From positions 1,240,001 through 1,304,000 of the forward strand of contig JAVTLE010000007.1 of assembly GCA_033439295.1 (NCBI GenBank): a stretch of DNA of 64,000 nucleotides. Direction: 5' to 3'. Below, piece after piece: positions 5,069 through 50,266 of the stretch; position 1 is the first letter of the stretch; each line of letters starts with the position of its first letter. The notes beneath the pieces were generated by a model. It did no database searches and was not told the DNA's origin. It saw only the letters and a program-made list of their open reading frames with translations. The stretch comes from Deuterostichococcus epilithicus (taxonomy: Eukaryota; Chlorophyta; Trebouxiophyceae; Prasiolales; Stichococcaceae). A program made the position numbers and the translations under genes.

Positions 5069-8000
5069 TCAGGCGGCGACCGCGAGCCGCTTGTCCACAG
5101 CCTCCTTGACGTGGCGCCGCGCCCAGGCGTCAGAGTCCACGATGTCCTCCAGGGTGGGCTTCAGCATGAGGTCCGCCTTGTGCGCCTCGCACGTCGCCTC
5201 CACCGTTCTCACGATGTCCAGGTAGCCGATCTTCTCGTCCAGGAACATCTCCACTGCCTGCGGCAAGACGCAGGAAGCAGAAGTTGAGCCGGTGAGAAGG
5301 TCGAAGGGCAAATGCGTCTCGAGAGGTTCAGAGGAAGGTTCGGCGCCACGGCTGCCTTCACAGGCAGCCGGGGTTCTGGTGCAGGACATGCCCCCAAATA
5401 TGCGCTCGCGAAAGCTACAGTGCAAGGGGGATCTCAGAGGAACTGCACGCTGATGGGGGCTGGCGGTGCTGCAACGTGCTCAAGTGGTGCTTCAGAGCCA
5501 CGCGCGTCTTAACAGCAGTTTGGAAAAGACTGCCAAACGCCTGAAGCAGGTGCGAACCCAAACTCTTGCAGGTCATCCTGTCATTTCCGAAGCATTCAGC
5601 ATTCAGTGTGTCAGGTGAAAGAAAAGAGGCACCTGCTCATTGGCGGCGGACAGCACGCCGGTCATGGTGCCGCCGGTGCGCCCCGCGGCATACGCCAGGT
5701 CCATCGCCGGGTACTTGGCGTTGTCCGGGTGCCTGAAGCGTTGCAGAATGTCCACTTGCTGTGGGCTTTGTCGTTGATGGCATGCTGCGACACCCGGCCC
5801 CGCATGCAACCCGGGGCTCCGCATTGCACAGCCTGGTATGACCTCTGCATCCCCTTTTGCGTCCCCTGGGCACTGCTCGAACCCAAGGCCCCGAATGCGC
5901 ATCCATGCCAGACGCGGGGTGCGCAGCGGCAGTCAATGGCACGCCTGAACGTGAGGTCGCCCATCTTGACGAAGTCGAGGCGCGGCCATGTCTTCTCGGA
6001 GCAGGGCACTCGCTGCGGCCACGACATGGTGTACAGGATGGGCAGCCGCATGTCCGGCCAGCCCAGCTGCATGCACAGGCAGCGCGTAGTCTCAGCATGC
6101 TGTGGTGGCCTTGATTGTTTGGTTTGGGGCAAGTCATGGCTTGTCCCCAAAATCTCACGCCGTGACGGGACCGGCCACCGCAGGGTGGCAAGTGACATGA
6201 ATTGTCATCCAAAATGATGGGTGCTGGCGATGTGAGGGTCGACAGGGCGGAATCCATCTGTTCTGCCCCGACACCCCGCACCTGAGCCAGGACGGAGGAG
6301 TCCTGCGTCTCCACCATGGAGTGGATGATGCTCTGCGGGTGGATCACGATGTCGATGTTGTCGTACGATGCGCCGTACAGGTAGTGCGCCTCGATCACCT
6401 GCGCGCACCGCAGGGTGGGTTCAGCTTTTTATGCCAGGCATCCGAAGGGTTTTGAGCGACCAATGTGTCAAGGCCGCTTGGGGCCACAACAACGACGGGC
6501 ACCCGAGGGGCTGCAGCTTCACGTGCCCCACACGTGCCGGGTGTGCACAGCCGTCAGAGGAGCCTGGTACCGTGCGAGGAATCTCCGCCGCCGCACGGGC
6601 AGGCGTGCCGCAGTGCTGCACAAGCACACCTCCAGGCCCTTGTTCATGAGCGTGGCGCTGTCCACCGTGATCTTGCGGCCCATGGACCAGTTGGGGTGTT
6701 TCAGCGCGTCCGCGACGGTGACTGTTTTCAGGCGCTCAACGTCCCAGTCGCGGAACGCGCCACCGCTGGCCGTGAGGATGATGCGCCGCATGCCACCCTC
6801 CGGCAGGCCCTGTGTCGAAACAAGGATGCTTCATCGAGCCGGCAGCGCTTATTGACCCAGGCAGCTGACGTCCAGTCGCAGCATGCGCTGCCGGAGGCCG
6901 TGAGGGTGATGCGCCGCGTGCCGCCCCCCGGTAGGCCCTGGGTCGAAGAACGCCTTCATCATTTCGGGTGCGAATTCATGTGCGCCGGCGCACCAGTCGC
7001 GGAATCTGCCGCCGCTGGCTGAGAGGAAAATGCGCCGCATGCCGCTCTCCAGCAAGCCCCTAGGCTGAGATCGAGGAATCGTTGCACTGAATTATGCCTG
7101 TCGGCAGGAGCCGTCACGGTGGGCATGGAGCAAGCTTTGGGCCGACAACAACTCAATCAAATCTCCTGTTGTCGCTCGATCCAACATCGGTCCTTCCTGG
7201 TCCAGTATCTGTCCTGCGACCCACACCTGGATGCACTGGAAGATGGCGGAGTGCTCCGAGTCCGCAGGCAGGATGTTGACGCCGTACTTCGCCGCCAGCG
7301 GCAGCACGTAGGGGCCGCCCGCGATGAGCGTCTCCTTGTTGGCCAGGCAGATGTCCTTGCCCTCGCGGATTGCCGCCACCGTCGGCTGCAGCCCCGCGCA
7401 CCCAACAATGCCTGGGGGACATGCACAGGAAACTGTCCCCGAGAGGCCAGGTGGGGACGCAAAGGGCAGTCTGGATGGCTCGGCCTTTGCGGGCGGCCGC
7501 CACCGTCGGCTGCAGCCACGCACACCCGACGGTGCATGTGAGCAGGCACACCGTCTGAGGGGCAGGCGCAGTGGCCAATCACACTGGCTTGCCCTCCCAG
7601 AGGGCCGCAACTGTCGGCTGCAGTACTGCACACCCGAGGATGCCTGGGGCGCAGGCACAGGACACCCCTGACGGGCAGGTGTGAGGGGGTGCTGCAGGCA
7701 TGATGCGTCAGCGGCATGAGAGGCCGCCAGCGTCGGCTGCAGGCCGCAAAACCGAGGATGCCTTGGAGCATGAGCTTCTGAGGCCCGGCGCTTCGTGTAG
7801 CAAGGTGTGGCGGCATCGAGACGCCTGGGCCTTGCGGCCCGCAATGGTTAGCTGACGCACATGGAAGCTGCCATTGTATTCTGGCTGTGGTTCCCGCTGC
7901 AGCCGCGCCCGCCACCAGTGCCACACCGCTGCTGCTGCGGACAGCAGCGGAGCGCTGCTGATGGCTCACTGCAGCTGCATTCTACCGCCCACCCGTGAAG

Positions 8001-9118
8001 ACTGCCTCAGTGCCAAAAATATGCGCTCGCAATTTGTACACTTCCAACAGCTGCCTGCCATTGTTGATCGTTCTTCGTTGTTGGCCAGTTGCTGTACAAG
8101 CCTGGCCTGTTGCTGCACAAGCAGACATGCAGCCACAAATTTCAGACTTCCATGCTTGCATTGCAGCTGCCGGACCCTTACCGGTGATTACCGCCTCGGC
8201 ATCGGGGTGCTGAGCGCACTCCACGGCGCCGGCGTCGCCCAGAACGATCTCCGGCATGTGCCCGCCCTTGAGCCGCTCCTTCAGCTCCTCCACCTTGCTG
8301 GCGTCCCGCAGCGCCACCAGCTTCGGCTTGAATTGCCGCACCTGCGCTGGTGTCCGGGTTTCCGTGCTGCTCGGTGGCAGAGCGGCGATGTCGTGCCAGC
8401 AGGCACGTTGCATGGCAATGCATTGTGCATAGGTGCCTGCTGACCTTGGTGCGCAGAAGGCACTTAGCGTAGAGCTACGCAGCCACATTTGGTGCAGCAT
8501 ATGGAGCCGCTAATTTCAGATGCTCGACAGCGTAGCCGCGAGCTCATGCAGCCAATGGCGGCGCGGAGTGGCAAGCGCGTGCCTGCTCTGCTAGGAGCTC
8601 GACGTTCGAGCCGGCCGCCATTGCCACGATTTCAAAGCGATCTGGGTTCTCCGCGACAATGTCCAGCGTTTGCGTGCCGATGCTGCCTGTGCTGCCGAGC
8701 AGCGAGAACCGCTGCGGCCGCATGTAACAGGAACCGGTTGACGAGGTGCTGGTTTCATGCTGTTGGCGCATTCAGATCTGAGCACCCGCATCTAGCAATC
8801 ATGCATTGCGTCTGCCAACTCTCGGACCGCCTGTCCCAGCCTGGATCGCCCCGTGCCACCCACCTTGGGCCCAGATCGCTGCTCCGCCTCAGGCGGTGCC
8901 ACAGCACGGCCTGGCCACGCAGGCGGTGGGCCTGAACCATTGCTGCCATTGCTGCCCTCTGCACGTACGAGCATTTGACGCTGCTGCTGTCGCCGGCTGC
9001 CCGCGCGCTGGTTCCGGAGTTGAGAGCATTCTCCCGAGAATGGCAGCGTCCTGCCTGACGTGGCGCAGACCTGCTGCGCGCCTAGCTGCATCTGCAGCAT
9101 GCTTCCGAGATGCGCCAT
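5069..9118 (-). CDS. DXR: 1-deoxy-D-xylulose 5-phosphate reductoisomerase, plastid
   Basis: DXR makes 2-C-methyl-D-erythritol 4-phosphate with NADPH and Mn/Mg, the first committed step of the plastid MEP isoprenoid pathway. Exons on minus: 9118-8864, 8711-8583, 8341-8182, 7411-7227, 6809-6630, 6398-6282, 6066-5945, 5732-5633, 5257-5069. They give 478 aa, the plant length. Seen in order: transit peptide, [10 protein letters not shown], Rossmann [25 protein letters not shown], acidic site [39 protein letters not shown], and the [13 protein letters not shown] region. Two introns start with GC (after 8583 and after 5945), and the phase requires both. Introns 3 and 4 carry repeated heads of the following exon, annotated separately. 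Confidence 0.96.
6871..7060 (-). repeat. two exon-5-head echoes in DXR intron 4
   Basis: In the gene sense, 7060-6992 and 6938-6871 are diverged copies of the first ~66 nt of DXR exon 5 (true copy 6809-6743). The translations are [16 protein letters not shown] and [16 protein letters not shown] against the real [16 protein letters not shown]. Both keep an AG just upstream and meet a GT soon after the copied part (TG|GTGCGC and AC|GTCAGC). Used as exons, neither would keep the DXR reading frame cleanly. Confidence 0.85.
7480..7762 (-). repeat. three exon-4-head echoes in DXR intron 3
   Basis: In the gene sense, copies of the exon 4 head (true copy 7411-7363, [14 protein letters not shown]) lie at about 7762-7722, 7646-7589 and 7540-7480. 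The middle copy reads [19 protein letters not shown] after an intact CCCCAG acceptor. The nearest copy reads [17 protein letters not shown] but has lost its AG. The farthest has a 1-nt shift. Spacing is about 110-130 nt. Confidence 0.85.
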
Positions 9119-10064
9119 TGATGCAAAACTCTAATGTGACGGGCGCACAAGCTCGGAAGCAGCTCGTCGATAAGGTTAGCTGTGCGCTAGTTGTCCTAAT
9201 GGCCGCCAAACGAATATGTGGTGGGCTCGCTGTTTCCAGCCAGCACTGTCCTCGCACTTGGGAGACGAGCACCAAAGCGCGAGCAGGTAGGGCTGCTGAA
9301 GCGGGATTTGCCGGACATCAGTGTACAATCATAAGAGTAAACTGACCTGAGGCGTCAGGCCGACAGGAAGGGCACCAAGTGCGCGCGTGAAAGGCGGCGG
9401 CTGCAGGGGTATCGTCAGCGGGGTACAGCATGCGGGAATCAGGGCAATATGCTGTGCACCGAACGGCCCCCTTATAGATACCTGTTTCCAGCCAGGAAGG
9501 CCAGAGATTGGGGAGGTAACACATCATGCCAACTGATTCCTCCCTCGAATAACATATGCCTTTGACATGGTGCATGCTCAACAGATCCGAGTTTGCTCGA
9601 CACGACACAACATAACTGAACTGACGCACGCTGCACTACGTGTGTCCGGTGCAGCATTCAGTCGTTTCACTACTGCTTGCACTTCTTGTCACTCGACCTC
9701 TAAGGCACTACTCATGTCCGGCGCATTTCACATCCATTCCATCCTCCCTCTGGGGGCCGAGATGCGGTTGCCAGATGGTAATGCTACTGCCGGAGGTGTT
9801 GTTGTTCTTGGCACCCCGCCGCCGGGCATTACTGGACGCATTCACCACACCTTCACCACATTACAGCTTGCTGTACCGCACGCGCATGCCATGCGTCCTG
9901 GAGTAGTAGTGCGCTGCGGAGCAATGAGAACACGTTGATGCTGCCCTGCCTGAAGAACAGCTCGCGATTGAACTCGTGCAAGAGCCAGCTGATGCTGAGC
10001 CATTCCCCGTCATCATGGCACCGCACGCAGCACAAGCAGCAACACTTACCACATCTGTGGTCCG
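9119..10064. other. intergenic, DXR 5' side and 3' side of the small membrane-protein gene
   Basis: No coding exon was recognised. TTACA at 9861-9865 (TGTAA on minus) lies about 200 nt past the stop of the gene to the right and may be its poly(A) signal. The DXR promoter should lie in the left part. Confidence 0.4.
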
Positions 10065-10700
10065 TCACTGCTGGCGCGTGGAGGTTTCGATCTCGCCTAG
10101 CACGACCTCCTTGCGAATTCTGTCGGCCTTCTGCTGTGCGCGCTGGTCTGCAGTCCAACAGTAGTGTGTGCCACACACAACATGCAAGGGATATATTTCC
10201 GCTATGCGTGCTTTGGACTGCGTGCAATGGTGCGCCAATGCAGGACATGCAGGCTGAATTGTGTTGAGTTTGCCGCGGTGCAGTCATCAGCTGTGACTCA
10301 CCTGCGATCATAAAGGCGGCTACCACTAGCAGGCCTATGCGGAGCGAGGTCAACACTGCATCAGAATGAGCGCTGCCTTGCCCAAGTATGCACTTATGCA
10401 TCGGAATACGAAGCAGCAAACAGCAGCATCGCTTTCCACCGGCGTCCACTCCCATCCCATGCAGAGGTCCAGCACATGCAAACAGCGTCAGGGCAGCCCG
10501 ACACAACCTGTGGTCAGGCCCCACGTCCAAGGATCACGGTTGACCGAGGCCTTCAGCTTGGCAGCCAGTGACCGCTCAGCAGGCTCCTTCGGAGCTGCTG
10601 ATGGGCTGGCCTGAGATGTGCTGGCATATGAGCGGCTCATCTGGCGGTGGTGGGAAAGCTGCTGCAGACCCAGTCGACCTTTCCCTAGAAGCGCGTTCAT
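10065..10700 (-). CDS. small single-pass membrane protein, probably mitochondrial
   Basis: Three exons (10700-10508, 10355-10302, 10147-10065) join in phase to 109 aa. The start is the ATG giving MNALLGKGRLGLQQL, an Arg/Ser-rich acid-free stretch (SHHRQMSRSYASTSQ) typical of a mitochondrial presequence. Then come DPWTWGL, one hydrophobic helix (LRIGLLVVAAFMIA, about residues 68-82), and a charged tail (QQKADRIRKEVVLGEIE). I do not recognise the family. Size and layout recall accessory subunits of inner-membrane complexes, but that is only an analogy. Introns use GTTGTG and GTGAGT donors. Confidence 0.6.
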
Positions 10701-11075
10701 GCTGAGTTCAGCTGTGCTATGAAACGATGGTGGCCTGCATGTCGGAGGTCTACACAATTTCAACTTTGTGGGTCACGTTATTGGGCGAGGCGACAGGTTC
10801 TATCATTAAGCCGACACGCGACGAGTCACAGACTTCAACCTGGAATACTGTGCAGGATACAACACGCGGTGGTTGCAGTTGTGTCACGCCAGGGCATATA
10901 CAAAAGCTGCAGTGTCAAACGCAACCGCGTCTCTGATGCACACAACTAAGGGTTGGCATGTTCTCCTCAGTTGTCGCTGTGCCGTTCCTCAAGGCAAACG
11001 TTCCTCAAGGAAAGGGGTTTGCTGCCTACAGCACGAAAGGCAGCACCGCATCTCTTTGGTCTCCGCCCAGGCAAA
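10701..11075. other. intergenic, small membrane protein 5' / phosphatase 3'
   Basis: Both flanking genes are on minus. The stretch holds the 5' region of the small protein and the 3' UTR of the phosphatase. Nothing else is recognisable. Confidence 0.35.
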
Positions 11076-14000
11076 TCAAATGTTCTTTTTAGTGTCTGTG
11101 CCCGCTGCCGCGCTGCTCTCTGCCGCGCCATTTTCTGACGGGCTGTTCTGGCTGGCGGCGGGCTTCACGTCCGGGGTGGAGACGCCATCAGACAGCGCCG
11201 CCCGCAGGCGATCCCGCTCGTCCTGCAACAGCGCGAGATGAGACACGCTCAGCCTGCAGTTTCAACAATGGCTGCCCGGCCCGTGGCTGGCAGCAGCCAC
11301 TGCGCAATCCTGCTGCACTGTGCGAGTGCCATCGATGCTGAGACACGGGCTTGCAGTGCGTGTTTATGTTTAGCGCCACAGCACGCGCTGTTAGCCCACC
11401 TCGTTGAAACCGATGCTGTCCATGTAAGGCACGAGGCCGCCATACGCACGCCTGCGCCGATGCAGAACCGACATGAGTGCAGGCAGCGCAAACATGGCTG
11501 ACGCCTGTCAGCTTGGAGCGTCCCTGAATGTTGCTGACGCGCTGCAGCAGTGGCCGATCAAAGCCCATGGAGCCTGTGCGTCCAGGGCGCGTCCCAGCAG
11601 GCGAGGCTGCAACAGTTGTCAGCCGGGTGCTCTAGTCAACAGCACACCATAGGATGAAACCGCAGCAAAAGCGGCATCTTGCAGCAGCAACGAGCAGAAT
11701 GTAAGATCGAAATTTCAGTGCATACACAAGGCGAGGCGCAAAGAAGAGGCGAGGCGCACTCGATGTACTCCAGGGTGGTGGCCATCGCCTCCCGCGGCGC
11801 CGCGCTGAAGGCCTTGACATCGAGGTTGGCCAGCACTTTGTCGTGCTCCAGGCCGCCTAAGGCAAGTGCGACGCCGTCCGCGCCGTCAGACCTGCGGGAT
11901 GCATGCACACTGTACTGCGCGCATTGTGTCCTGCATCTTGTGTCTCGTGTCCTGCTTTAGGAGGACTTAGAGCCACGCGTGCCGTCAGACGGGCATTATG
12001 GATGCCCACATGCTTCGCACTGGTAGCACGGTGTCCTGCTTCTTGTGTCCTGACTCTTAAATATCTGCTCGCAGTTCGTGGAGCAGAAGAGTGCCGCAAG
12101 ATGCACTGCGCTTCCGCCCCTTCACGACGCCGCCAAACATGCAAGCACGCATGCCGGCAGCCAGGCGTCCGCAAGTTTAAGTGCAGCAAGCCCGGGAAGC
12201 CCATGCACCTGTTGTAATCGGAGATGATCTCGTCCTTGGTAGCGCCGCAGGCCGCCAGCACCAGCGCCGCCGTCAGCCCCGTGCGGTCCTTGCCCACCTT
12301 GCAGAAGAACAGCGTCGCCTCACCCCGCTCCGCCGCCGCCCTGATGATCTGTAGCAGCAACATGGGAGCGTGTCACCCCGGATTGGGGGTGTACTGACAG
12401 CTTTATCTCTGCTGCAGAGGAAGAGAAGAGAACGATGTCCTTGCAATGCTCCGCGGCCGCCCTGAAGACCTGCGAGCGCAGGGTGCAAGCATGCCACACA
12501 GCGGGAGCATGTCGCCTTGAAGAAAGGGGGCAGTCATGATGCGCCTGCTCCCCGCTCTCGCTTGCGATGCAAGACACAGCCCTGGCCGCGCACGCTCCTT
12601 TGCTGAAACTGTCATGTGACCATCGAATGCTGGCAATATTGTGGAAGCAGGCTCAGCGTCAGCGGCAGCTCGTCGGCGGGAGCACAGCAGCAGCACACAT
12701 GGCCGCCGTTGACAACGAGCTTTGAATGCGTCTCTCATCCTCGCAACGCACTCGCACATGCCGTCTTGAAGCACGCCAGGCAGCGCCGGGCACCGCTCAC
12801 CTTCAGCGCTGAGCACAGCTCCTGGGTTGCGGAGTCCAGCAAGATTTCGTACAGCTGCGGCAGGCCCCCGGCGTTTACCTCTCTGCAGGGAGGCAGGGTC
12901 CACGCTGGTTGGGGTTCAGGCTGTCGCTCACAGCCTCAGCATCACACCGCCTGGCGGTGTCGGCCTCAGCGGTGGCCAGGGTCGCGTGGGCGCTGTGGGA
13001 CCCATGTTGGACTAGCCAGTCAGCGGGCACAGGCACCAGGCCGGCTTTGCGATCAGCCAGCGGGGGCAAGGATGACTCACTTGAGCACCACGTTCTTCGC
13101 CTTGTCCAAATTCACGACACTCCAGAGCAGAGTGAGGGCTGCCACGCCCCGCGGCAATCGCGTGAACAGCGAACGGTAGTAGCGGTTCCTGTGCCGGCAC
13201 ACCACAGTCAGAATTTCTGCATTCCAGCAGCAGCACGCAGCCAGAAGCTGATGCGACTCACAAAAGGTGCCCGGGGCCGGCAGCCCACGATCATGAAGGT
13301 TGTGCCAGCCGTAGCTGCAAGGACATCACCGCAAAACAGGGGTCAAGGTTCTCAAATTCAGCCTTACAGCATTACGCCTCTGTTTCGACAGCAGCAAGCA
13401 TGCGGGGCAGGCAAACCCTTGAAGGACGAGTTGCAATGCAGAGGAGACTCGGGAGCTCACTTTTCCAGCAGCGCTACATGGTGGACGGTCAGCGAGGGGC
13501 GCCTCGGCGGCGCCGGCTCGTCTCTGTTGTCCGCGCCGTCGTCCACGCCGTCTGTCGCGCCGTTGCCGGCCTCGATGGCGCCGGCAGCAGAGGTCCGCGG
13601 CGCCGCGTCGTAGTTGTTCCGGATGCGGAACGTCTCCCGCTGCGGCCAGCGCAGCACAGCCAGCTGAGCGTCCATGCCCTCTGAATGCAACCTGCCTCCC
13701 TTCTCAGCGGCCCTGCATGATGACGACCTGCCTGCGGTGTGTTGATGCTAGCATGCGCGAACATGGCTGGATGAGCTGCAGGACCTCTCGCTGGGACCTT
13801 CCGGCATGCGCCATATGCCACCAGAGTACGACTCTGGTAGCCGCACGGGCAGCGCACCTCGGCCGCGCCGCCAGTCGTTGCAGAGTTCATGACCTCCGCG
13901 TGCTGCAGCAGCAGGCTGTCCCCATCCTCTTTGCGCTCCACCGCCGAGCGCAGGTCCACCTACGAGAACAGTCCAGACTCCCTTTGCTGAAACATGTGCC

Positions 14001-14709
14001 GACAGTTGCGCATTGCCGAGATGTGCACGCTTTGTGATGCACTCCCAAGTCAGATTCTTCGAGCGGCAGTCCTCGCAGACAATATCCACAGTCCGAAAAG
14101 CTCCGGATGCCTGCAGCCAGCACCAGCGACACACACCAGCTGGCGGATGTTGAGGGTCTCCCGCAGCAGCTCGACATCTGCAGCCGACGCGCTGTTGGGG
14201 CATGCCGATCGGAACAGCAGACCTGCAGCGATGTTGGGCTGCAGATTAGAATCAGGCGTTGAGAATTTGTACACTAATTAGTGGCAGAGCATCGGCCGCC
14301 ACTGCAGGGTGATGGACCAGCAGAGGCGTCCACAGACCTGGCCGTATGTTGGCGCACGCCTCAGCCAGGTCGCGGGCATTCTTCACGTTCTGCAGCTTCG
14401 CCAGGGTCGATCCTGTCTCGACCTTCCGCGGCATGACTGCAGCCAGGCATTGATCACGGAGCTGTGAACGTCCGGCAGCGTCAGCATCCGACCAAATGGG
14501 GTGCATGTCAGTGTGTGTAGCAATTGCGAATGGTCAAGCAGAGCGCTCCCACAGGAGTTCTCACAGGACCACTTGACGTTGTGCTGCTGACCTGTCTGCC
14601 CGGTGTAGGCCGCTGAGGACTGTCGCCGGATGGCGGGGAGCGATGCGCGGACGCCGAACAGGCTGGCTACAGGCTCGAAGCAGCTGTATACCACCCCCAT
14701 CCGTTGCAT
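11076..14709 (-). CDS. protein tyrosine phosphatase, Y_phosphatase3-like
   Basis: Exons on minus: 14709-14592, 14436-14338, 14222-14137, 13959-13858, 13639-13461, 13188-13081, 12882-12801, 12348-12209, 11891-11760, 11451-11400, 11222-11076; all phases agree, about 414 aa. Family landmarks: NVKNARDLAEA, IRPGLLFRSA, VDLRSAVERK, the catalytic loop CKVGKDRTG (C-x5-R with Cys nucleophile and Arg), SDYN, and the late ...LEYIERAYGG...YMDSIGF block. The acidic insert after residue ~160 and the Ser/Ala-rich tail ending GTDTKKNI look disordered. The substrate is unknown; members act on phosphotyrosine or phosphoinositides. The start could also be the ATG at 14700. Introns 7 and 8 carry exon-head echoes. 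It diverges from SYF1. Confidence 0.82.
11970..12060 (-). repeat. echo of exon 9 head plus intron 3' end in the phosphatase gene
   Basis: GTCTGACGGCRCG occurs at the true exon 9 start (11891-11879) and again about 99 nt upstream in the intron (near 11992-11980). The intron bases before each copy also match: CATCC near the acceptor and a CAGGACAC/ACAAGA run further up. The duplicated unit therefore spans the intron 3' end and the exon head. Confidence 0.65.
12430..12482 (-). repeat. echo of exon 8 head in phosphatase intron 7
   Basis: In the gene sense, an intact CGCAG acceptor is followed by VFRAAAEHCKDIVLFSS, matching the true exon 8 start IIRAAAERGEATLFFCK (12348-12300). It lies about 130 nt upstream of the real exon and stops before the catalytic Cys loop. 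Confidence 0.7.
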
Positions 14710-15421
14710 CCGTAATGTAGGTGGCGGCAGTCCCAGCCCCTTCGCACGCCCCGCCAGCTGGGGCGCCGGCAGGCAACTCGAGGCTGGGGCGCCGCTGTGC
14801 GCGCTCTGGCGCAGGCAACTGCTTCTCGATGCCGTTGTGAGCGCCGTCTTCAGCGCTGGATTGTATCAGAAATACTTAAGCTTGCAGAGGATCGTCTGAG
14901 GAGGAGTGGGCTTTGTCTGAAGGCGATGGATCGGCGTCGCAAAGCGATTACGTCGCGTTGGTGGTGTCAGTACTGCAAATAAACGCCTGATCCGCGATCG
15001 GTGGACTCTGCTGAACGCAAGACAATCGGCCTCAAACAAACTCTACAAATTTGTGGAAGGGCTCCTGCGGCATCAGTTGCTGATCCTGGCTTCGGCACCG
15101 CTTCGTGACCTCGGACTGAGAGCAAAAGGGTAATTGATGTAGATAATACTAGGAATAACAGGTGAGCTAATCACACCTGTGCAGCAAGCCAGCGTGCTGC
15201 AGCGCCCCGGCATTTCTGCATGTTTTGCGGTCTGAGAGTGTGACGGAGGCATCATGTTTAGTGCTCGGTCTGCGTAGCATCCTCCACTGTGCGCGGAACG
15301 GCAAACAGCCGTGCTGACTGTCGGCATCATCCAGTCTTTTTTTGTGTGGCGAGCGACATCTCTGGCGCCCAGTGCATGGCACAAGCGTCCTGCTGAGCCC
15401 TGAGGGGCTATACTCTCGATC
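14710..15421. other. divergent promoter region phosphatase/SYF1
   Basis: About 710 bp between two divergent start codons. No exon was recognised, and I see no clear TATA box. Confidence 0.4.
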
Positions 15422-16000
15422 ATGGTGGGTGTCATGGTGGAGCCGGCGCCGGCAGCAGCTGCAACAGCCGCGGAGCAGGCGGCCATTGACGAGCTGCTGC
15501 CCAGCGAGGAGGATCTTCTCTATGAGGAGGAGCTGCTGCGCAACCCGTACTCGCTCAAGATGTGGTGCCGCTACATCGAGGCGCGCCAGGGCATAGTGGC
15601 TCGGCGGCGCTATGTGTTGTATGAGCGGGCGCTAAAGGCGCTCCCCGGCAGCTACAAGGTGCCGACCTTCTCTGGGGCGCACACTTTTCGCTGTCTGCAC
15701 GCCAGGTTGCGAATCCCTTCGCGAGACGGCAATATGCCTCAAGCTGTGTGCTCGCCCGCCAAGTTGGCTGGCTCTGACGGCAAGACTGCTCGATAGGCCG
15801 TTCAGACAGCGGTGCTGCATGAGACTGACTGCGAGTGGCTAATCGGACCAGCCATTCGGCACGGGTGCAACGAATCAGATGCCCCTGTCGCGGCGACGGT
15901 GATTGACAAGGCTTGCCGGCAAGCAGTACGGGAAAAAAGGTCCCGAAGAGCAACTTTGTATAGAGAGGTCCAAGGTCCCTGAGAGCGCCTTTGTATCACA

Positions 16001-16032
<32 letters not shown>

Positions 16033-19000
16033 NNCACACACACACCCAGCAACGTTTCCCACCTCACAAAAATTGAAGTTTGAAAACTCTGCGTTCACAC
16101 TTTCCGGCGCAACTCTGGGGTGCGTCCCTGCAGTAGCAGCGGCTGGCGTGCCGCGGCCTCAGAACACCACCTGACAACCCCTCGCACTCGTCATTGACCA
16201 ACCTTACGTCGCTTTGCCTCACGCAGCTGTGGGCGGCGTACCTGGGGGAGCGGCGGCTGGCCTGCCGCGGCCTCAAGGTCACGGACCCGCGACTGGGCCG
16301 CCTCAACGACACCTACGAGCGGGCGCTGGTCAGCATGCACAAGATGCCGCGCGTGTGGACCCAGTACCTTGAGCTCCTGGCGGAGCAGCGGCTCGTGACG
16401 CGCGCCCGGCGCACGTTTGACCGCGCGCTGCAGGCGCTGCCTATCACGCAGCACGACCGCATTTGGCAGCTGTACCTGGTGAGAGGTCGTGTGCTTCGTG
16501 AGCTGTGACAACGGATGTGTGATAAAGGAGAAGGATACTTGCAATTGTGGCGGTGTCTCGAGGAGGACTCGTATATGTGCGGTGGGGCAGACGGGCAGAC
16601 CGTGCGCAGACGGCCGCAGACTGAATCGCCAGCCCTGCAAAGACGGCAGCATCCTGAGAGATATAGCAGGCGAGAGGAAACATGAAGCCAAAATAGCGCT
16701 TGATTGGCTGGACTCAGACACTGACACCATCCGTGTGCTGCATCGCGCAGAAATTCGTGATGCAGCCGGGCATCCCTGTGGAGACTGCCACGCGGGTGTA
16801 CCGGCGGTACCTGAAGCTGGAGCCGACGCACGTGGAGGAGTACATCGCCTACCTGAAGAAAAAGGTGGTTTCTTTGCCGAGGAGCTGCCGGGGAGCACTT
16901 TTTGGAAAGCGCTGCCTCCATGGTGGTCTGACTGTCCTGTCGCCGGCGTCTCGAGACGCTCCGGATGCGCAGCAGCAGTTTCCTGCCAATTCGAACCTGC
17001 AGCCGCACACTGCCTGCTGATGGGCGCCGCTGAACCCTCGCCCTCTCCTATGTGCGCAAGAGCAGTAGCACCAGGCGGCGAGCCGGCCGGCGGATGCTGC
17101 CAACAGCTTTTCAAGTGCCACCAAACTTCCTTGTCAATCAGTTGCCACCCAACCTTCTCGGCAACTGCCACCCACCTTTCTGGCGTGGGCCGCACAGGAG
17201 CAATGGGGCGAGGCCGCCACGAAGCTGGCGGAGGTGTGCAACGACGAGCTGTTCCGCAGCCTGGAGGCCAAGTCCAAGCACGCGCTGTGGCTGGAGCTGG
17301 CCGACATCTGCACGCGGCACCCGCGCGACGTCGCGCACCTGCGTGTGGAGGCCATCCTGCGCGCCGGCATCCGAAAGTTCACCGACGAGGTGCGGCCTCC
17401 TCCTCCATTTGTTTTGTATAGGGTCCCGGTGTCCGGGCTTCCTCAAGCCTGCACTTGCGCATGGATTCTGAATTGAACTTCAAAATCGACCTGAATTGCT
17501 CTTGGTCTGGCGTGCAGGTGGGGCGGCTGTGGACAAGCCTGGCGGACTACTTCATCCGGCAGGGCCTATTCGAGAAGGCGCGCGACGTCTACGAGGAGGG
17601 CCTCACAACGGTGCGGCCCTGATCGTGTCAACACCTCGCCCTTGAGAATCTGTCCAAGTGCATGATGCCCTTTGTTGTAGAGTCTATGCCAATGCAAGGC
17701 TGGCGTTCACCTCATCACCTGCTGGCCGTGGCACCAGCCCTGCGTCTGTCTCGAAGCCTCGACTGCAAGTGCTCTCCCGCGGGTTCAGACCCACTTGGCT
17801 GGGGCGTCTGGCTGACCTTCTGCCCTGCAGATTTATCCGACTTTTTTCTATCCTTTCCCCCTGTCTCCAGGTGGTGACGGTGCGGGACTTCTCCCTCATC
17901 TTTGACGCGCTCACGACGTTCGAGGAGTCGCTGCTGGCGGCGCGCATGGGCGCCGACGACGCAGAGCCGGAGGAGCCGGAGGCGGGCGGGGACGCTGACG
18001 CCGACGGCGCAGACTTCATGCTGAAGGACCCCGGCAGCGACGTCGACCTGCGGTTAGCCATCCCGCGCTGCCACGACCTCTCGTGTCGTGCTGTCGAGCA
18101 TCGGCCAGAACAGCACCGGTTGGCCCTGGACTGCGCATCATGGCCGTGCTTCCCGGCAGGGCTCCATATTGTGGCGGCCATACATCGGACACGGGCGGGG
18201 GCGGCTGGAGACTGAGGAGAGCGACGCGCTCAGCATCCCTACAACTCCTCGTTGTGTGGCAGCAACTGCGCGACGCATTCGCAGTCACACTCACCCTCTT
18301 GTGCACGGCGCTCAGCAGGCCGGCACAGCTGGAACACTTGATGGGCCGGCGCCCGGAGCCGCTGTCGAGCGTGATGCTGTCTGTGTCAGGGCTGTTCTGT
18401 TCATTTTGTGTGCATACCTGGGAAACGTCAACGAACCCGCGCGCGCACCGCTGCGCAGACTGGCGCGGCTGGAGCAGGTGACGGGGCGCCGCCCAGACCC
18501 GCTGTCCAGCGTGATGCTGTCGGTCTGTTGGGTTCATTCTGTTCGCATTCATAGGACCTGAACGGAATCTTGCGCACCGCTGCGCAGGCTGGCGCGGCTG
18601 GAGCACCTGATGGGGCGCCGCCCGGAGCTGCTGTCCAGCGTGATGCTGCGGCAGAACCCGCACAACGTGCACGAGTGGCACAAGCGCGCCCGCCTGTTTG
18701 CGGGGCAGCCGCACAAGCAGATCCTCACCTACACCGAGGCGGTGCGCACCGTGGACCCGGACAAGGTGCGCTGAGATGATTTACTGATCTGGAAAACGCC
18801 TGTTGATGTCAGGAAACATGAGCGGAAACCTTGGGGTACCTAAAATTGAAGGAAGATGGCAGATGAGCGTCGGGTGGTGCAAAGGTTACGGCACGTCTCC
18901 GGGTGTCCTGCTCGGCGCTTGCTGGCATAAACCCTTGTCGTCTTTTGGGAGGGGCGATGCCGTCTCGAAAGAGCTGTGCAGAGTGGGTGGGATGTCTCCC

Positions 19001-22000
19001 CTTGCGGCAGCGATATCTGCGGCATCAATCACAAGATGGCAATGTCACCCGCCCTGCACAGTCCCAGATGTGTTCTCAGATGATGACGCATGGGGACCCG
19101 CACCTGCCGGTGCTGAGCCAGGCAGCACACACTCTGCTGAGGGGCTGCCCTTTGAGGCCCGTCCGCCACGGCTGCGCAGGCCATCGGCAAGCCGCACACG
19201 CTGTGGTGCGCCTTTGCCAAGTTCTACGACCGGCACGGCGACCTGGCCAACGCCCGCATCATCTTCGAGAAGGCCACCGAGGTGACCTCAGAGCGTGCTG
19301 CTCAGCTGCCGCCCAGGGACTCTCAAATGGCTAGTTGTCATGCAGCCTTCGGCTCGATTCACCAAGTCGCCGCTGGCGCAACGCATCATTGCTCCCCGCG
19401 ACGCATCTCTTTGCGAGGGCCGCAAAGAAGTCAGATGCCAGCCACCCAAACGCCGCAACCTGGGGCGATGAGCTGTTTTTATTACTTCAGATTTCGTACT
19501 GCCCACTGCAGGCGCGCTACAAGTACGTGGACGACCTGGCGTCCGTGTGGTGCGAGGCGGCCGAGATGGAACTGGGCCACAAAAATTTCCGCCGCGCGCT
19601 GGAGCTCATGCGCAAGGCGACCACGCCGCCGGCGCATGCTGCCGGGCGCCGCACGCAGGCCGAGATGGACGGCCCCGTCCAGGTGTAAAGCTCTTCCCAG
19701 GGGTCAAAAGGGAGAGCAAGGGCGCATGAACGGGGCGCGGTGGTGCCCCAAGGCGGCGAGCCTTGCGCGCAGGGCGGCGATGATCTGCAATTCAGTCATG
19801 CGGCTGTGCTTGCCGATGCTGTGGAGCTGCTATGAGCATGGCCGCCCCTGTCGTCTGCTCCTCCAGACCCCAAGTCTGTTGGCCCACGCGACATGCAGGG
19901 GCAGCCGCACTGCAGCCTGAAGCCGTGGAGGCGATGCTGCGACCTGGAGGAGCCGGCTGCGCCGCTCACGCCTCTCGACGGTAATTCAGACCAGACCCTG
20001 ACACTGACACCCTGACACATTCCCACGTCCACATTTTTGCAGGGGCGGCTGTACCGCAGCCTGAAGCTCTGGAGCTTCTACTGCGACCTGGAGGAGTCGC
20101 TGGGCACGCTGGAGAGCACGCGCGCGGTGTACGACCAGATCCTGGACCTGCGCATCGCCACCCCCCAGATCGTGCTCAATTACGCGCTTTTCCTGGAGGT
20201 GGGTCTTGTCCGCTGCCGCTGCCGCGCTGGCGCTGCAACCAGATGTTGCCGCAACACAGCAGTATTGCATGCTGTGCGCCTGCCCAGGACCTCCGTCTGG
20301 CCGCTCAGACGAACCCCACCCAGCAGCCATGGGCGCCTCTCACCTCATGTGCCTTAGCGCATCAGCGCAACGTGCGCGGCAGAGGCGGCTGCAACACCAA
20401 GCACGCCCGGGCACTTCAAGAGCTCGCGACCTCGCCTGCTGTCCGTCATGTGCGTCTCATCGCACATGCAGATAAGCCTGAAGTTGCCGCTTGCTGACTC
20501 CGCCTGCAGGAGAACAAGCACTTCGAAGACGCGTTCCAGGCGTACGAGAAGGGGGTCTCCCTCTTCAAATTCCCGCACTCCAAGGACATCTGGGCGGCGT
20601 ACCTCACCAAATTCGTGGCGCGATACGGCGGCAAGAAGCTGGAGCGCGCCCGCGACCTCTTCCGCCACGCGCTGCGCGAGGTGCGCAGTTTCATGGAACT
20701 CGAAAGTATCAGGGATATGCGGGTATTGTCTGCCCCGCTCAGAATGCAGTCCCATGCTGGGATGAGTGGCTGCTGAAGCGCGGCTTTAGGAAGGGCAAGA
20801 TGTCGAGGTGGCACGCAGCTCAGCATGTTGCACTTCGCCATTCCTACTGCACAACCTGTGCCTGTACATATGTCTGACGTACCCAACAACTGAGATTTTG
20901 TGCTAAACTCAGCCAAGTCAGCGCTGTCGTTGGGCTTGGCAGCCATGATGAACCACACTTGATATATGCCACTACGTGAGTCTTTCACAGGCAGCTGATG
21001 TACAAAATCTTTGTTTTAATTTCTGAGCTGCCAAACCTGGCAGCCTCATTGGTGCCTCCCTCCCATGCATACCCACGTCTTCCCTGTCGTTCGCCAGCCC
21101 TCCCAGCAGCAGCAGGAGGAACCAGCTTCTTGCGCTGTGTCTCGCAGCCCCGCTCGTCAATCGAACATCTGCGGTAGGGCCACATCCAGCAGCGTTTGCC
21201 TGGCAAGTGTCCGCGAGCCTGCCCTGTGGCCGAGCGGCATCGTGACGCCTGTGTGCCGCGCGCGGCACATCGAACACACCCCGCTCCACGCGTGTGTGTC
21301 GACTCTCACCGTCTGCCCTGCCCGCCGTTGCAGACGCCGGCGGAGGCGTCAGCCCCAGTGTTCCTGCAGTACGCCGCCCTGGAGGAGGAGCACGGCCTTG
21401 CGCGCGCGGCGATGGGCGTCTATGACGAGGCGGTGCGCACGGTGCCGCCCGGCGAGCGGCTGCCCATCTACGATGTGTACCTCAAGCGCGCCTCCGACTT
21501 CTTCGGCATCGGGAAGGTGCGGTCTTCGGCAGATGGCGCGGAGAATCGCAAGAAGCCTTTGGGCTGGATGTGTTGTTGCCCAGACAGAGCTAGGTTGGTC
21601 AGGCAGAGCTGGGTCTTGAGGAGTCTCAGGCCTGTTGCCGCGCAGCCTCGAGGCCGTCACGCACATGTGCGCATCGGCATCTGCAGCTGCACGGCACTGC
21701 ACCAGGGTCGCTTGCGGCGGGCCTGACGGCGCATGGGTCACCTTTGGCGCTGCTAGCTCCCTTCAAAAGTGCTGCTTCTGCCGACCAGGTCCGGGAAATT
21801 TACGAAATGGCGGTGGAGGCGGAGCCGCCCTACAGCCTGTCCGATGCCGACTGCAAGACCATGTGCGTGCGCTATGCCAACCTAGAGACGCGGGTGCGCC
21901 GCCGCCCCTCATCAAGTTTCTAGGGTTTATAAGGGTTGGGACGAACTTGCGTGTCTTTCATGTTCTGGTTGTGCAAACTCCAAGGGCCACGGCAGGTTGC

Positions 22001-23563
22001 CGCTGCTCGTGCGGTGTGCTTTTGTGTCTTGATGGTGCTGCAGGCTTGCCTCGTCACGCAGCTGTGTCGTGTGATGTGGCAACCTCCCCTGGCCCCATGC
22101 TTTCGAAGGCTGGTTCTGCAGGAGGTCTATGCCACTGGCGCTGGCCCTGGCCGCCTTGCAGCGCCATAGCCGGCGGGGCACACGCTGCCGTGTCTCTCAC
22201 TCAGGCATGCCGGAATTTCTCGACCCCTAATGCCCTCCACCAGCCACAAACCCTGTCAAAACCCCTGGTGGCAGGTGGGCGAGGTGGACAGGGCGCGCGC
22301 CATCTATGTGCATGCCAGCAGCCTGTCGGACCCGCGCAGCGATCCCGGCTTCTGGAGCGAGTGGAACGATTTCGAGGTGCGCTTCAGCTGTGGTTCGACT
22401 CACAGTCCTCCCGCTGGGGGAAGAGCTCTACTGCTGCCCGCAGGTGGCAACACAATTGTCCCTTATCGTGCATGGCCGTGCCAGCGCCATTGGACAGCAT
22501 GCACACGAGTCGCAGGTGGCGGCATCTCGTGCGCTGCCAGGCTCATCTGCCTGCGCTTTCCAGCTGCAGCCTTTCCTGTTGCACACTCGTGGCAAAACCC
22601 GTGACGCAGGTCAAGTTCGGCAACGAGGACACGTTCAGGGAGATGCTGCGGATCAAGCGCTCAGTGGCGGCGTCCTTCAGCCAGCTGCATTTCAACACCG
22701 CCATCATCGACTCCGCCACCGGGCCCTCCTCCTCAGGCGCGACCTCCCAGCAAACTCTGCATGGGGGTTTCGCACGATGCCTGGAAGCGGTATCCTGGAC
22801 TGTTGCAACCCGCAGCATGCATCACTCGTCACAGTCGCGCAGACGCGACTCCAGACGCGGTGCCAGACTCGATGCAAGGCACCGTTGCGCCACAGCTGAG
22901 CCCATTGATCGGGCAAAAACGCAGGCACGGTGGAGGCGGGCGTCGGCAAGCGCAAGCGCGACGACATGGCGGACCTTGAGGCACAGCTGCCGCCGGATGC
23001 GGCGGCGGGCGGCCAGGCGCCCGGCACGAAGCTGTCCGGCTTCGTGTCGGCGGGCGTCATCCAGCAGCAAGACCAGCCGCAGGCAGCGGGGGCGGCAGAT
23101 GCGGACGCCGCCGCGCCAGGTGCTGTCTGCAATGCTGTCTCATCTCTCGGGCCTCTTGATATCCGGCAAAGCTTGCGAACGGCACACTAGAGTCACAACC
23201 TGCATGTGGTGTCCAGTCCCAGAAGCCACGACCATAACCTTGTCGTGTGTCTTCCTGGGGCTGGTGCGGAGGTGCAGCGTGCCCACAAACCATCGCCCAC
23301 AAATCTCGCCCGTTCCTGCCGCAGCTGCGGCTGCCAACCCGGAGGATATCGAGCTGGACGAGCCGGGGGAGGACGACGAGGATGCGGACGCGGATGCGGG
23401 CGGACCCTCCGTCGTGCAGCAGGCGGTTCCGGACGCGGTGTTTGGCTCCATGGGCGGCGCGGCGGCGGCGGCGGCAGGCGGCGCAGCAGAAGATGGCGGC
23501 GGCGCCGCAGCGCCGATGGGGGCGCTGGACCGCTTCAAGCGGGCAAAGACCGGCGACAGCTGA
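15422..23563 (+). CDS. SYF1: pre-mRNA splicing factor SYF1 / XAB2 (HAT repeats)
   Basis: SYF1 is a scaffold of the Prp19/NTC complex in active spliceosomes; XAB2 in animals also aids transcription-coupled repair. Exons: 15422-15658, 16227-16478, 16751-16864, 17198-17389, 17518-17610, 17871-18052, 18588-18765, 19180-19281, 19512-19682, 20043-20198, 20510-20680, 21334-21516, 21789-21893, 22275-22376, 22610-22766, 22925-23119, 23325-23563; phases agree, about 942 aa. HAT motifs run throughout: NPYSLKMWCRYIEA, RVWTQYLELL, LWLELADICTRHP, LWCAFAKFYDRHG, LWSFYCDLEE, DIWAAYLTKF, FWSEWNDFE. The tail is acidic (PGEDDEDADADAGG) and ends DRFKRAKTGDS. Introns 1, 6 and 9 hold copies of the next exon's head. 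Confidence 0.96.
16002..16046. repeat. (CA)n microsatellite
   Basis: A CA dinucleotide run in SYF1 intron 1 is interrupted by two N bases, so its assembled length is not reliable. Confidence 0.95.
16137..16172 (+). repeat. partial echo of SYF1 exon 2
   Basis: The string GCGGCTGGCGTGCCGCGGCC lies about 110 nt upstream of its near-identical counterpart inside exon 2 (16250-16276, one mismatch over that stretch). A CAG precedes it. The first ~23 nt of the exon are not in the copy. Confidence 0.7.
18319..18518 (+). repeat. two in-frame 60-nt echoes of SYF1 exon 7 head
   Basis: Copies at 18319-18378 and 18459-18518 match the first 60 nt of exon 7 (18588-18647). Each follows an intact AG and stays open: PAQLEHLMGRRPEPLSSVM and LARLEQVTGRRPDPLSSVM against the real LARLEHLMGRRPELLSSVM. 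Each is followed at once by GT exactly where the real exon continues. The intron before copy 2 and before the true exon is also shared (CGCACCGCTGCGCAG). Starts are 140 and 129 nt apart. Confidence 0.93.
19798..19980 (+). repeat. echoes of SYF1 exon 10 head
   Basis: The copy at 19899-19980 starts after GCAG with GGGCAGCCGCACTGCAGCCT and contains GCGACCTGGAGGAG, as in exon 10 (20043 onward). It ends at a GTAATT donor-like site and is open throughout. A weaker second copy starts near 19798 (GCGGCTGT...TGTGGAGCT). Most differences in the strong copy are nonsynonymous. Confidence 0.85.
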
Positions 23564-27200: not shown

Positions 27201-30200
27201 TCACCGCTGCTGCGTCTGCTGTAGCAGTTTGTGGCTCGTCCAGATGTTGAGCACCTCTGCGTCTGCCGCCAGCGCCAGATTGCGGTCGTCCTGCATGTGG
27301 CAGACAATCGCATGGTCACACCTCTGCGGGGCAGGACGAAGACTGGGCCACCTGCCAGCGACTGCCGACACCTCAGAACCTCCATCCCAAGCATTCTGCA
27401 GGCCGCGTCTGCACTGCTGTGAGTCGCTGCTCCGCTAGTGCTGCGGCTGCCAAAGCTGCCATGCTGCTGAGGACACACGCGTCTTCAGCCTCAAGTAAAG
27501 GGTGGGCAAGTCCGCACCGTCAGCAGCGCGACGGCGGCGCCGCCCAGCTGGAAGAAGCGCACTGTGTCCAGAATGCGCACATCGCCGCGCCGTGGCCCAA
27601 GACCCTCCGTTCCCGGCTGCACCGTCTCCTCCTCGCCGCTGCGGGGTGTACAAGGGTTTGTGGGGTTTAAGGAGCATCTTTGAAATGGACGCGCGTTCCC
27701 AAATTTCTCCTCTGATCCAGGCGCACGTCGCTGCGCTGCGGCCTGGGGGCCCTCCATTCCCAGCGCTGCCAAGCACACGAGTAGATACAATCCCAGAGAG
27801 TTCAGATCCCAAAAGGGTTGCAAGGCATTGACGGTCCCTTGAGGTTCGTCTGGAAGGCGGCTCGAGGCAATGTCGGCTGCACGCTCACGGCGGCCGGCAG
27901 CGCTAGCTGGGAGGCGAATGCCTGCTCAAGTCAATAAATGGGGATGGATCGGGACCGGGCACCTGGCCAGGCGCAGGGCGGCGCGGTCGCGGCCGGCCAG
28001 GTCTTCCAGGAAGCGGGACGCGTCGCGGGAGGCGCGCGCCCGGTCGCTGGCCCCCTTCTTCAGCCCATCCAGCTCGTGCAGCACCACCTGCGGGTGACGG
28101 GTCACGTCAGCACAGTGTGCCGCAAGCCGTTTCTGCGTCTGAGCTGGAGGTCCATTCGATATGACCATTCTCGCCCGTCACACCTGTCCGGCCGCCTGGG
28201 TTCCACACAGGCGATCGCCGCACACAGGCATCCCGAGGGGCGGAGGAGATGGCAGCGCCAGGAGACACTGTGATGGAGTACAACGTCAGTGGCTGGCCGG
28301 TGACATGACGGCCACACAGCTGTGCCAGCGCGGCTCACGTGGGGGATGAGCAGCGCGGCGGCGCCATCGGTGTGCCGCAGCCAGGCGGTCAGCGCTGTCC
28401 GCCCAGACACATTCATCAGCACGTTGGTGTCCACAGCCAGCAGGCTGCGGCCGGTCTCACTGCGCGACAGGGGCACACCTTTGATAACATTGACAGATCA
28501 AGTGCAGAAACCGAGATTTTGGAGCATGGCAGTGTAAATCAAAAGGTCTGAAATTTTGCGCGGCTTCGTGCTGTTGGGCGCAGGCTGTCAGGCACAGGAC
28601 AGGCTCGATGTCAGCCGACCAGCAGCTGCAACGAAGCCGCACCTTTTCGAGGGCTTCGCCCAAACATGCGTGCGCCTGCAGCCAGGCGAGCGTGGCATGT
28701 CAGCGAAGGAGAACAATGGGCACACCACACTCATGCGATGCAGCACGTAACACAGCACAATCGCCAAGCCCGACACTGCACAGCGGCGAACGGCACTGCG
28801 ACGCAAGCACGTACAGGCAGGCCGTTCAGCTTCATCCCAGAAGCCTCAGGTCGCAGCACTTTTGGTACCAGGATTGTTTGCCGCTCACCGCTTCATGGCC
28901 CATCCCGCGGCATACTTGGCGTCCGCGGACGGCAGGCTGCCCTTGTAGGGCGCCAGCTTGCCGGCTGCCACCATCAGCTTGTACTCCTTCAGCGTCAGGA
29001 AGTCGCCGCTGCCTGTGAACCACGCAGTTGCAGGAATCAGCCTCGTGGCTGGGTGCCATTGGCCTCTCGTCCTGCAAGGCCGCCTTCGAGAGGAGGAGGC
29101 CCCCTGCCTGCGATTCTTGGCTGACAGCGAGCGTTGGCAGAGGCGAGGCGGCCTGCGCTGCCATGCAGATGGCCCTGCTGCTGCGACCCAGACTGTGTGT
29201 AGAGGTGATTGTTCGTGTCAGTGGACACAGCCACTGCAGGATATGGATCTGAGTGGTAGTGGAGTGTCTTTCTGCATGAACTGATCGGCAGATTGCACTT
29301 ACACTCCCCTTCGTGCAGATGCGTTCCAAGACAGCTTGTACGCACCCGACTTGCGCTGGACCTCCGGCAGCTGCAGCGGCGCCAAGGAGGCCGCACTGGC
29401 CTTCTGCCTGCCGAACGCTGGTGCCTTGACGTCGCCGGACGCATTGCTGCCGTCCGTTGCTGTACCGTTGCCGATGTCCACCGCCTTGCCGATGCCCAAG
29501 CGCTGGATACCGGCTTCGATGTCCGCGACTGCTGCCTTGGCCTTCAGCACTGCTGTCGGCGAAACCTTGGTGAGCGCGCCGGCTGCCTTTCCCCGCTGGG
29601 CAATGCCGCTGCCGCCTCCAGGCGATGTCGCCGCGGCGGCCTGCTGCTGCTTCGAGTTCCGCCGCTGCCGCTTGCGCTGCGCCTTGGACACCTTGCCTGC
29701 CACAGCGTGCAGCTGCTGCGCCGGCGGCGGCGGTCGCTGCGCCGCGTAGTGATGCAGCGACAGCGGGCTGCTGTTGGGGCTGCTGCTGGCGGCGGCGTGC
29801 TGCTGCCGCCGCAATTGCCAGGCCGCGGGCGCGCTGTGGTGGCTGCGCACATGCGGCGGCCAGCAGAGCTGCGGAGGGCCGTGCCACCCAGCGTCCTGCC
29901 GCGGCGCCACTGCGGGGGTGACAGAAGGGCATAGAGACTGTCAGCCGCCACTGAAACCATTTGTGCACACTTAAATACCTTTAGGGCGGCAGAAGGAGCG
30001 TCATCGCGCTATGACGTCTGCCGGCGACCAAATCACGTGATGGAGGGTTAGTGCTAACAGGAGGGCACACCCTGGCCGCTTGGCGGGAAGAACCCAGAGT
30101 AGTGTGCGGGGTGTTGCGGCGGCGGGGGCCCTGGCGGCGGGCGCGGCGGCGGCACCGCACTGACGTGCTGTTGAGCGGGCCAGCCGCCCATTGGCGGCAG

Positions 30201-48600: not shown

Positions 48601-49273
48601 AGGAAGAATCGTCTTTCAAATTTATTCCGTACAGATGTAACATGCCAAATGGCGAACCATCTGATTCTGATACTGATTTGAAATACTCTCCTTTGGGTAT
48701 CAAATTGCCAAGAAACGGGTTACCTTGTGTTGCAAGGTGTGCAGGAGTTGTATTGAGGATAGCAGCACCGTCATGATTCCTCATAGTGATGGTCTTCCGG
48801 CTCCAATCAATTGTGGGGTTGTACTGCTTAAGCCAAGGCATGCCCAGGATCATCTCATGCTTGCTGTCGGGCATATCTGCTATGAAGAACTTTTGATTGC
48901 ATCTGATGTGAGTAATTTCGCAGAAGGAGAATTGCATAGAGGCATAGGCATTGCAGGTCCTCGAAGTCCTATCTGCTAATTCGACGGTTCTGGTCCGAAA
49001 GCATCTGTGTATGTCCAAGCCCAGTTTGCTTGCCATATCCGGTCGTAAGAAGTTGCCGGATGCTCCACTATCGATCAATGCTGTGATTTCACGTCCACAA
49101 GAATAGATCTTGCATTGTATCGGTTGGCATAAGTCAGGATCTGCAAGGCCAGTTACTTTCGGTGCAGCAGAAGGGTTGCTTCTCTCAATTGTCGGCTCAT
49201 TTGTGCAAGCCCCAACGTCAATAGCCGACGTCGTTAATCCTGACGGCGGGGCTGCCGAAAATCCGATTTCTTA
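45680..49273 (-). CDS. pol: retrotransposon Pol (PR-RT-RH-INT-chromodomain)
   Basis: One open frame of about 1,195 codons, without its own ATG at the 5' end. Domains: aspartic protease LIDSGASGNFL (near 49075); RT with ALNKITIKN, IDLRSGYNQI, FGLTDTPATF (usually FGLTNAP) and catalytic YLDD; RNase H starting TTDASGFGIGAVLS; integrase with the zinc HHCC (HxxxH in RGHMGLAKT region, CGFCQQSK) and DDE acidic residues (MDFITGLP, SDRDVRFTS, QTERANR); C-terminal chromodomain EFLIKWLGYPSEDNTWEP, which defines chromoviruses. The frame is -1 relative to Gag and overlaps its last ~13 codons, so Pol may be made by -1 frameshifting. Confidence 0.95.
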
Positions 49274-50238: not shown

Positions 50239-50266
50239 CTTGATATTAATCCAAAAGGAAGGTCGA

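Follow-up and report, generated by a model that had tools for sequence, protein, structure and literature searches.

Worn copies of exon edges in the neighbouring introns of the green alga Deuterostichococcus epilithicus

Tandem duplication across a splice junction is an event of a known kind. In potato RdRp, a tandem genomic duplication over an intron-exon boundary produced a new intron (PMC4974935). Tandem duplication is treated as a route of intron gain in a review (PMC3443670), and small tandem duplications that arise from break repair are described in another study as insertions of under 100 bp (PMC8355091). Here we describe worn copies of exon edges, which we call echoes, in introns of Deuterostichococcus epilithicus (Trebouxiophyceae). 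They were noticed by a sequence-only reading of a window of 64,000 nucleotides (the whole stretch of DNA presented; positions 1240001-1304000 of contig C6), in the genes for the pre-mRNA splicing factor SYF1, DXR, and a phosphatase. Across the stretches examined, about 1 intron in 12 holds an echo of an adjacent exon, in most cases at a distance of some 100-150 bases. The literature that we covered, which took in part of the Coccomyxa genome paper and not that of Chlorella variabilis, yielded no description of exon-edge echoes as a genome-wide pattern, or of such a frequency and size.

As in the potato gene, the unit would consist of the 3' side of an intron and the 5' side of an exon and would carry the splice site along; there, however, part of the copy is retained in the mRNA and an additional intron results, whereas in the alga one copy is wholly intronic, and the echoes recur across many genes and at donors too (PMC4974935). 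With regard to adjacent copies of an intron edge and an exon edge, which mark the potato event, the exon edge and its splice motif are found at many algal loci, and the intron part is clear in 3 of 34 spacers. With tandem-duplication intron gain of the AGGT type, the echoes share a small direct duplication that alters intron structure and leaves the protein unchanged; in that process the new intron is built of exon copies, whereas here existing introns grow. The order expected of an AGGT-type intron (the head of the next exon, then the tail of the previous exon) was not seen when spacers, i.e., the intron sequence between echo and exon, were compared with previous exon tails (mean score, 6.5; control with the intron tails of other loci, 7.1). 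Duplications from break repair are likewise short and direct but are not tied to splice sites (PMC8355091); in the alga, the age of the copies makes the breakpoints unreadable. Introner elements are a further case of green-algal intron remodelling (PMC3443670). A single genome query with the echo and spacer of SYF1 intron 1 found no introner-like shared sequence, matching only itself and its own exon, and the sequence upstream of echoes showed no shared mobile sequence when compared with the intron tails of other loci (mean, 7.1; 99th percentile, 11).

The SYF1 protein is 69% identical to its best match; among named species, the closest are the trebouxiophyte green algae Myrmecia bisecta (64%) and Coccomyxa viridis and Micractinium (63%). 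The gene models and echoes of the window are as follows (window coordinates).

15434 to 23563, plus strand: SYF1 gene model with 17 predicted exons, from the gene finder and protein homology
16113 to 16161, plus strand: echo of the head of SYF1 exon 2 (exon start, 16227), covering bases 1-49; 40/49 identical, offset 114
18460 to 18519, plus strand: first echo of the head of SYF1 exon 7 (exon start, 18588); 54/60 identical, offset 129, with the intron tail also duplicated
18302 to 18379, plus strand: second echo of the head of SYF1 exon 7; offset 269, the match taking in some of the intron tail
19899 to 19966, plus strand: echo of the head of SYF1 exon 10 (exon start, 20043); 54/69 identical, offset 144
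5069 to 8996, minus strand: DXR gene region as predicted (fused with the phosphatase); the predicted exons at 7504-7509 and 7861-7934 appear spurious
6868 to 6937, minus strand: first echo of the head of the DXR exon starting at 6809; 58/71 identical, offset 128
6993 to 7059, minus strand: second echo of the head of this DXR exon; 82% identical, offset 249
7464 to 7770, minus strand: about three diverged echoes, seen from repeat offsets, of the head of a DXR exon presumed to start at about 7411
7464-7535, 7572-7643, and 7691-7766, minus strand: approximate positions of these echoes, reckoned from the repeat offsets
12448 to 12468, minus strand: short echo of the head of phosphatase exon 8 (exon start, 12348); 19/21 identical, offset 121
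27721 to 27764, minus strand: a further echo, outside those first noticed, of the head of the exon starting at 27638, covering bases 22-64; 33/44 identical

The DXR exon start at about 7411 is presumed from the reading frame and the DXR consensus, judged by eye. For each intron named in the sequence-only reading, the 80-nt exon head was compared with its own upstream intron and with 2,000 mononucleotide shuffles. SYF1 introns 1, 6, and 9 scored 31, 48, and 35, and no shuffle scored as high; the DXR introns before 6809 and before about 7411 scored 43 and 38, above all 2,000 shuffles; the latter test took 7417 as the exon start, which lies six bases inside the intron. The shuffle maxima of these five introns were 16-18. 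Phosphatase intron 7 scored 17 (P = 0.001), and phosphatase intron 8 scored 11 (P = 0.10 against shuffles). Of the seven introns named, six thus exceed their shuffles, and the echo in the remaining one is not supported. The copy numbers and the spacing first reported stand: the best echoes lie at 114, 129, 144, 128, and 121 nt, and the array in DXR intron 3 advances in steps of about 108-124 nt. Homologs of SYF1 and DXR align over the real junctions and contain no echo peptide, and this homology supports the copy adjoining the rest of the exon as the probable coding one in both genes.

The wider analysis covered 204 kb, comprising the window, C6:1200001-1240000, and C1:500001-600000, of a genome of 46.8 Mb in 21 contigs. 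Genes were predicted from the sequence alone by a hidden Markov gene finder built and trained on the same 204 kb, which converged on 34 genes with 437 exons and 403 introns. The predicted introns average 281 nt, and the predicted consensus is CAG/GTGCG at donors and YTGCAG/G at acceptors. The SYF1 and DXR models agree with solved homologs over most of the junctions in question. Errors of the models include the fusion of the phosphatase with DXR, one misplaced DXR acceptor, and exons falsely inserted into DXR, into eS19, and into a gene resembling IF-3, where the finder mistook an echo for an exon. Exon starts (heads) were compared with their own upstream introns and exon ends (tails) with their own downstream introns; with exons of <20 nt excluded, the 403 introns gave 378 heads and 372 tails, and only the 600 nt of intron adjoining the exon were screened.

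A score of at least 16 was reached by 24 of 378 heads, compared with 0/378 in reversed introns, 0/378 in length-matched other introns, and 3/378 in the reverse complement. Among tails, 15 of 372 reached this score (reversed introns, 2/372; other introns, 0/372; reverse complement, 1/372). On the opposite side, where only exons of >160 nt were used, there were no matches of heads to their own downstream introns (0/114) or of tails to upstream introns (0/123). At a score of at least 18, there were 22 heads and 11 tails, distributed as 14 heads and 10 tails on C1 and 8 heads and 1 tail on C6. The exon-edge process thus recurs beyond the three genes in which it was noticed and is present on both contigs sampled. 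The upstream excess of head echoes anticipated in the sequence-only reading was found over the 204 kb, but the strict polarity that went with it was not: exon tails, which had been described as uncopied, do echo downstream. The window itself has no tail echo (0 among its predicted exons), which accounts for the earlier impression.

Head echoes upstream and tail echoes downstream are what duplications spanning a junction would give. The assertion that tandem duplication could not produce the polarity is therefore not supported, since a duplication that spans an acceptor leaves a head upstream and one that spans a donor leaves a tail downstream, as in the 15 of 372 tails. The eS19 gene is a tail case, with 50 of 54 bases copied past the donor; solved eS19 chains pass from the real exon directly to residues encoded in a later predicted exon, the match to this second part being weak (5 bits). 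The same size class appeared in a self comparison that used no gene models and from which repeat pairs of low trinucleotide complexity had been removed. The offsets of direct repeats peaked at 100-160 nt, with 12 pairs at 100-120, 16 at 120-140, and 7 at 140-160 (dinucleotide shuffles, 0 there), and over the 204 kb there was one inverted repeat in all (offset, 300-500) and none below an offset of 300. The 67 repeat pairs with offsets of ≤400 comprised 27 head pairs, 11 tail pairs, 22 pairs with both copies in predicted exons, and 7 in non-coding sequence only; these are counts of pairs rather than arrays, and gene-model errors shift some between classes.

Offsets fell within 98-168 nt for 16 of the 22 head echoes and within 90-131 nt for 10 of the 11 tail echoes. 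Most copies reach the acceptor, as had been noticed at the outset: the alignment starts at exon base 1-4 in 16/22, where the exon was the query and no earlier start was possible. Upstream of this point, the echo matched the true acceptor in register at positions -1 to -5 in 13, 13, 12, 11, and 11 of 22 cases, respectively; from -7 to -20 there was a slight match (0.321, compared with 0.23-0.31 in shifted controls, most of which lay close to 0.26), and none was seen farther out. The acceptor dinucleotide of the echo was AG in 10/22 (expected, 5.8%; P = 1.5e-7) and AA in 3/22, and in tail echoes donor bases +1 to +3 were matched in 6/11 each. Differences at the three codon positions were.19/.165/.25 in heads and.17/.18/.21 in tails, and this near evenness indicates that an echo decays as non-coding DNA. 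Neither the codon positions nor the SYF1 and DXR homologs showed the coding constraint expected of a coding internal repeat or an alternative exon. Echo-bearing introns had a median length of 423 nt (n = 22), compared with 227 nt for the others (n = 356). Within multi-copy arrays, the nearer copy was the more exon-like in 9 of 11 untied steps, with 2 ties (judged by eye, weak copies included). Neighbour spacing in the array near C1:512770-513256 (L003) was 151, 109, and 133 nt, and it varies in other multi-copy arrays too; this variability suggests frequent indels in the intronic part.

On a slight balance of probability, we attribute the echoes to recurrent short tandem duplication across splice junctions, in which one junction copy is kept, the intron is lengthened, and the exon-derived part is perhaps homogenised. 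Short tandem duplications, mostly of 90-150 nt, would recur in the genome, and where one spanned an intron-exon junction, the gene would keep one junction copy and the other would become intron. Use of the downstream acceptor would leave a head echo upstream, and use of the upstream donor would leave a tail echo downstream. Repeated events at one junction would shift older copies outward, so that the intron would grow stepwise. The intron-intron part of the unit would fade and the exon-intron part would stay readable, by which the array would come to resemble exon-only copies. Short-range exchange between exon and echo would keep the exon-derived part similar; such homogenisation is a guess. 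The observations on which this account is built are the direct repeats, their size, the involvement of both junction types, the splice site in many copies, the near-even decay, the longer introns, and the few arrays that retain the intron part; from these we infer the duplication step, the use of splice sites, and a reason for the fast fading of the intron part.

Several results weigh against this account. If the units are tandem duplications, the spacer should look like the sequence past the echo. In 34 spacers (21 heads and 13 tails; 1 head and 2 tails were too short and were left out), the intron part was clearly duplicated relative to shuffles in three, namely, SYF1 intron 6 (head; z = 8.5), the intron at exon 18 of c6 gene0 (head; z = 3.4), and the intron at exon 15 of c1 gene3 (tail; z = 9.7), and the remaining 31 gave no z of >2. 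Two further tails stood out when set against spacers from other loci (z = 3.1 and 4.9), and long matches also extend across the spacers of DXR introns 3 and 4 and at a site near C1:598650. In 15 of 16 single-step heads, similarity reached no farther than 12 nt beyond the acceptor. When simulated tandem duplications were run through the same pipeline under several settings, equal neutral rates gave intron-tail similarity of >17 nt in 63-94% of those detected (observed, 1/16); an intron rate 2-fold faster still left 30-44% beyond 17 nt, and one 3-fold faster left 18-26% (74-82% within). The early remark that the intron tail is usually absent from the copies is thus borne out, and simple decay in simulation fails to reproduce it. 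No clustering or gradient of mismatches along the copy, as conversion might give, was seen (Stouffer, 1.24), and identity did not depend on the distance between copies (rho = -0.04, n = 49), so that there is no direct sign of exchange. Heads also outnumber tails (12 versus 3 at a score of 30; Fisher P = 0.19, 0.07, 0.08, 0.28, and 0.03 at thresholds of 16, 18, 20, 24, and 30, respectively), an excess that is modest and unexplained. Also unexplained is why similarity breaks off so sharply at the splice site.

It is possible, if doubtful, that a process anchored to the exon acts at both edges and writes the edge with its splice motif 100-150 nt into the intron, or keeps the copies in step while the intron between them turns over. 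That only the exon edge and the splice motif are copied into the intron, for example by RNA- or chromatin-guided repair, with an unrelated spacer between, we consider unlikely. Such copying would suit the stop within 12 nt of the acceptor (tails look similar by eye), the undetectable spacer homology in 31/34, and the flanks of the eS19 pair, which is 93% identical and whose flanks, by eye, have only GTGC in common. Intron sequence is nevertheless plainly present in three arrays, and in more by long matches; the spacer of a young pair in a carrier gene gives a weak signal (P = 0.005; z = 0.8 in the spacer test); and the direct orientation of all copies is not forced by templated insertion. We know of no mechanism for copying of this kind. 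Plain tandem duplication followed by ordinary neutral decay alone, which would account for the size, the direction, both polarities, the included splice site, and the arrays, is disfavoured by the equal-rate simulation and is improbable.

A staggered break whose overhangs are filled in would double the exon edge, and filler, sometimes telomere-like, would form the spacer. The two strongest of the four telomere-like tracts in the 204 kb, at C1 ~578460 (L009) and C1 ~535935 (L005), lie between the copies of young exon-edge duplications, as the spacers of two of the youngest pairs, and 6 of 22 head spacers had P values of <0.05 for CCCTAAA. Spacers are nonetheless not telomere-like overall (mean P, 0.52 for the 22 head spacers and 0.51 for 37 spacers defined without gene models), and telomeric filler as a general source of spacers is not supported. 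Flanking direct repeats at a score of at least 18 were not enriched at telomere-like loci (2/28; two of 30 loci, L016 at a contig end and L022, known beforehand, were set aside) compared with random sites (6.3% of 2,940), and ends at splice sites are unexpected from random overhangs. This origin is quite improbable. Interstitial telomere-like tracts are widespread in the genome, with 116 matches of CTAAACYCTAAA with CAGG within 30 nt downstream; CACG followed the tracts in 76 cases (many of them subtelomeric) and CCTG stood upstream in 116, which does not point to a special tie to acceptors. Two of nine acceptor-side telomere-like loci had an upstream exon-head echo, one being the known case. 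As a separate observation, a telomere repeat followed by CCCTTG(A/T)CCCAGCCACG recurs by the contig starts of C4, C7, C9, C11, C12, C13, C15, and C18, and the series of telomere repeat and CCCTTG on C11 advances in steps of about 2.2-2.3 kb.

Maintenance of the echoes as selected decoy acceptors, one of the causes first proposed, or by another regulatory function is very improbable. The echoes do lie close to the acceptor in use, and AG survives in some, but the acceptor of the echo is decaying (no AG in 12/22), decay is near even over codon positions, and tail echoes have no acceptor. A cDNA-like origin, tried for heads only, is not supported: the sequence upstream of echoes compared with the previous exon tail gave a mean of 6.6 (control with the intron tails of other loci, 7.1).

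Further repeats were observed in the window. A direct repeat at 53472-53549 and 53621-53695 (72% identical; offset, 149) has its first copy in the final exon predicted for a small gene; it could be a tail echo, or the gene model may be wrong there. Direct repeats on the minus strand at 30539-31403, with offsets of 63 and 87, both multiples of three, fall within the predicted coding sequence of one gene. A Ty3/gypsy-type retroelement lies at 45683-50343 on the minus strand in a low-GC stretch (45-50% GC), with matches to gag, protease, reverse transcriptase, RNase H, integrase, and a chromodomain.

Intron lengthening, and the tolerance by the cell of a second copy of a splice junction, are seldom caught in the act. 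If copying anchored to the exon proved true, introns in a trebouxiophyte-like alga would be growing by a route not described before. If the rate of 22/378 heads and 11/372 tails held genome-wide, splice sites would compete naturally at thousands of places in this genome, the loser being known each time, and a duplication process specific in size would be directly measurable in it.

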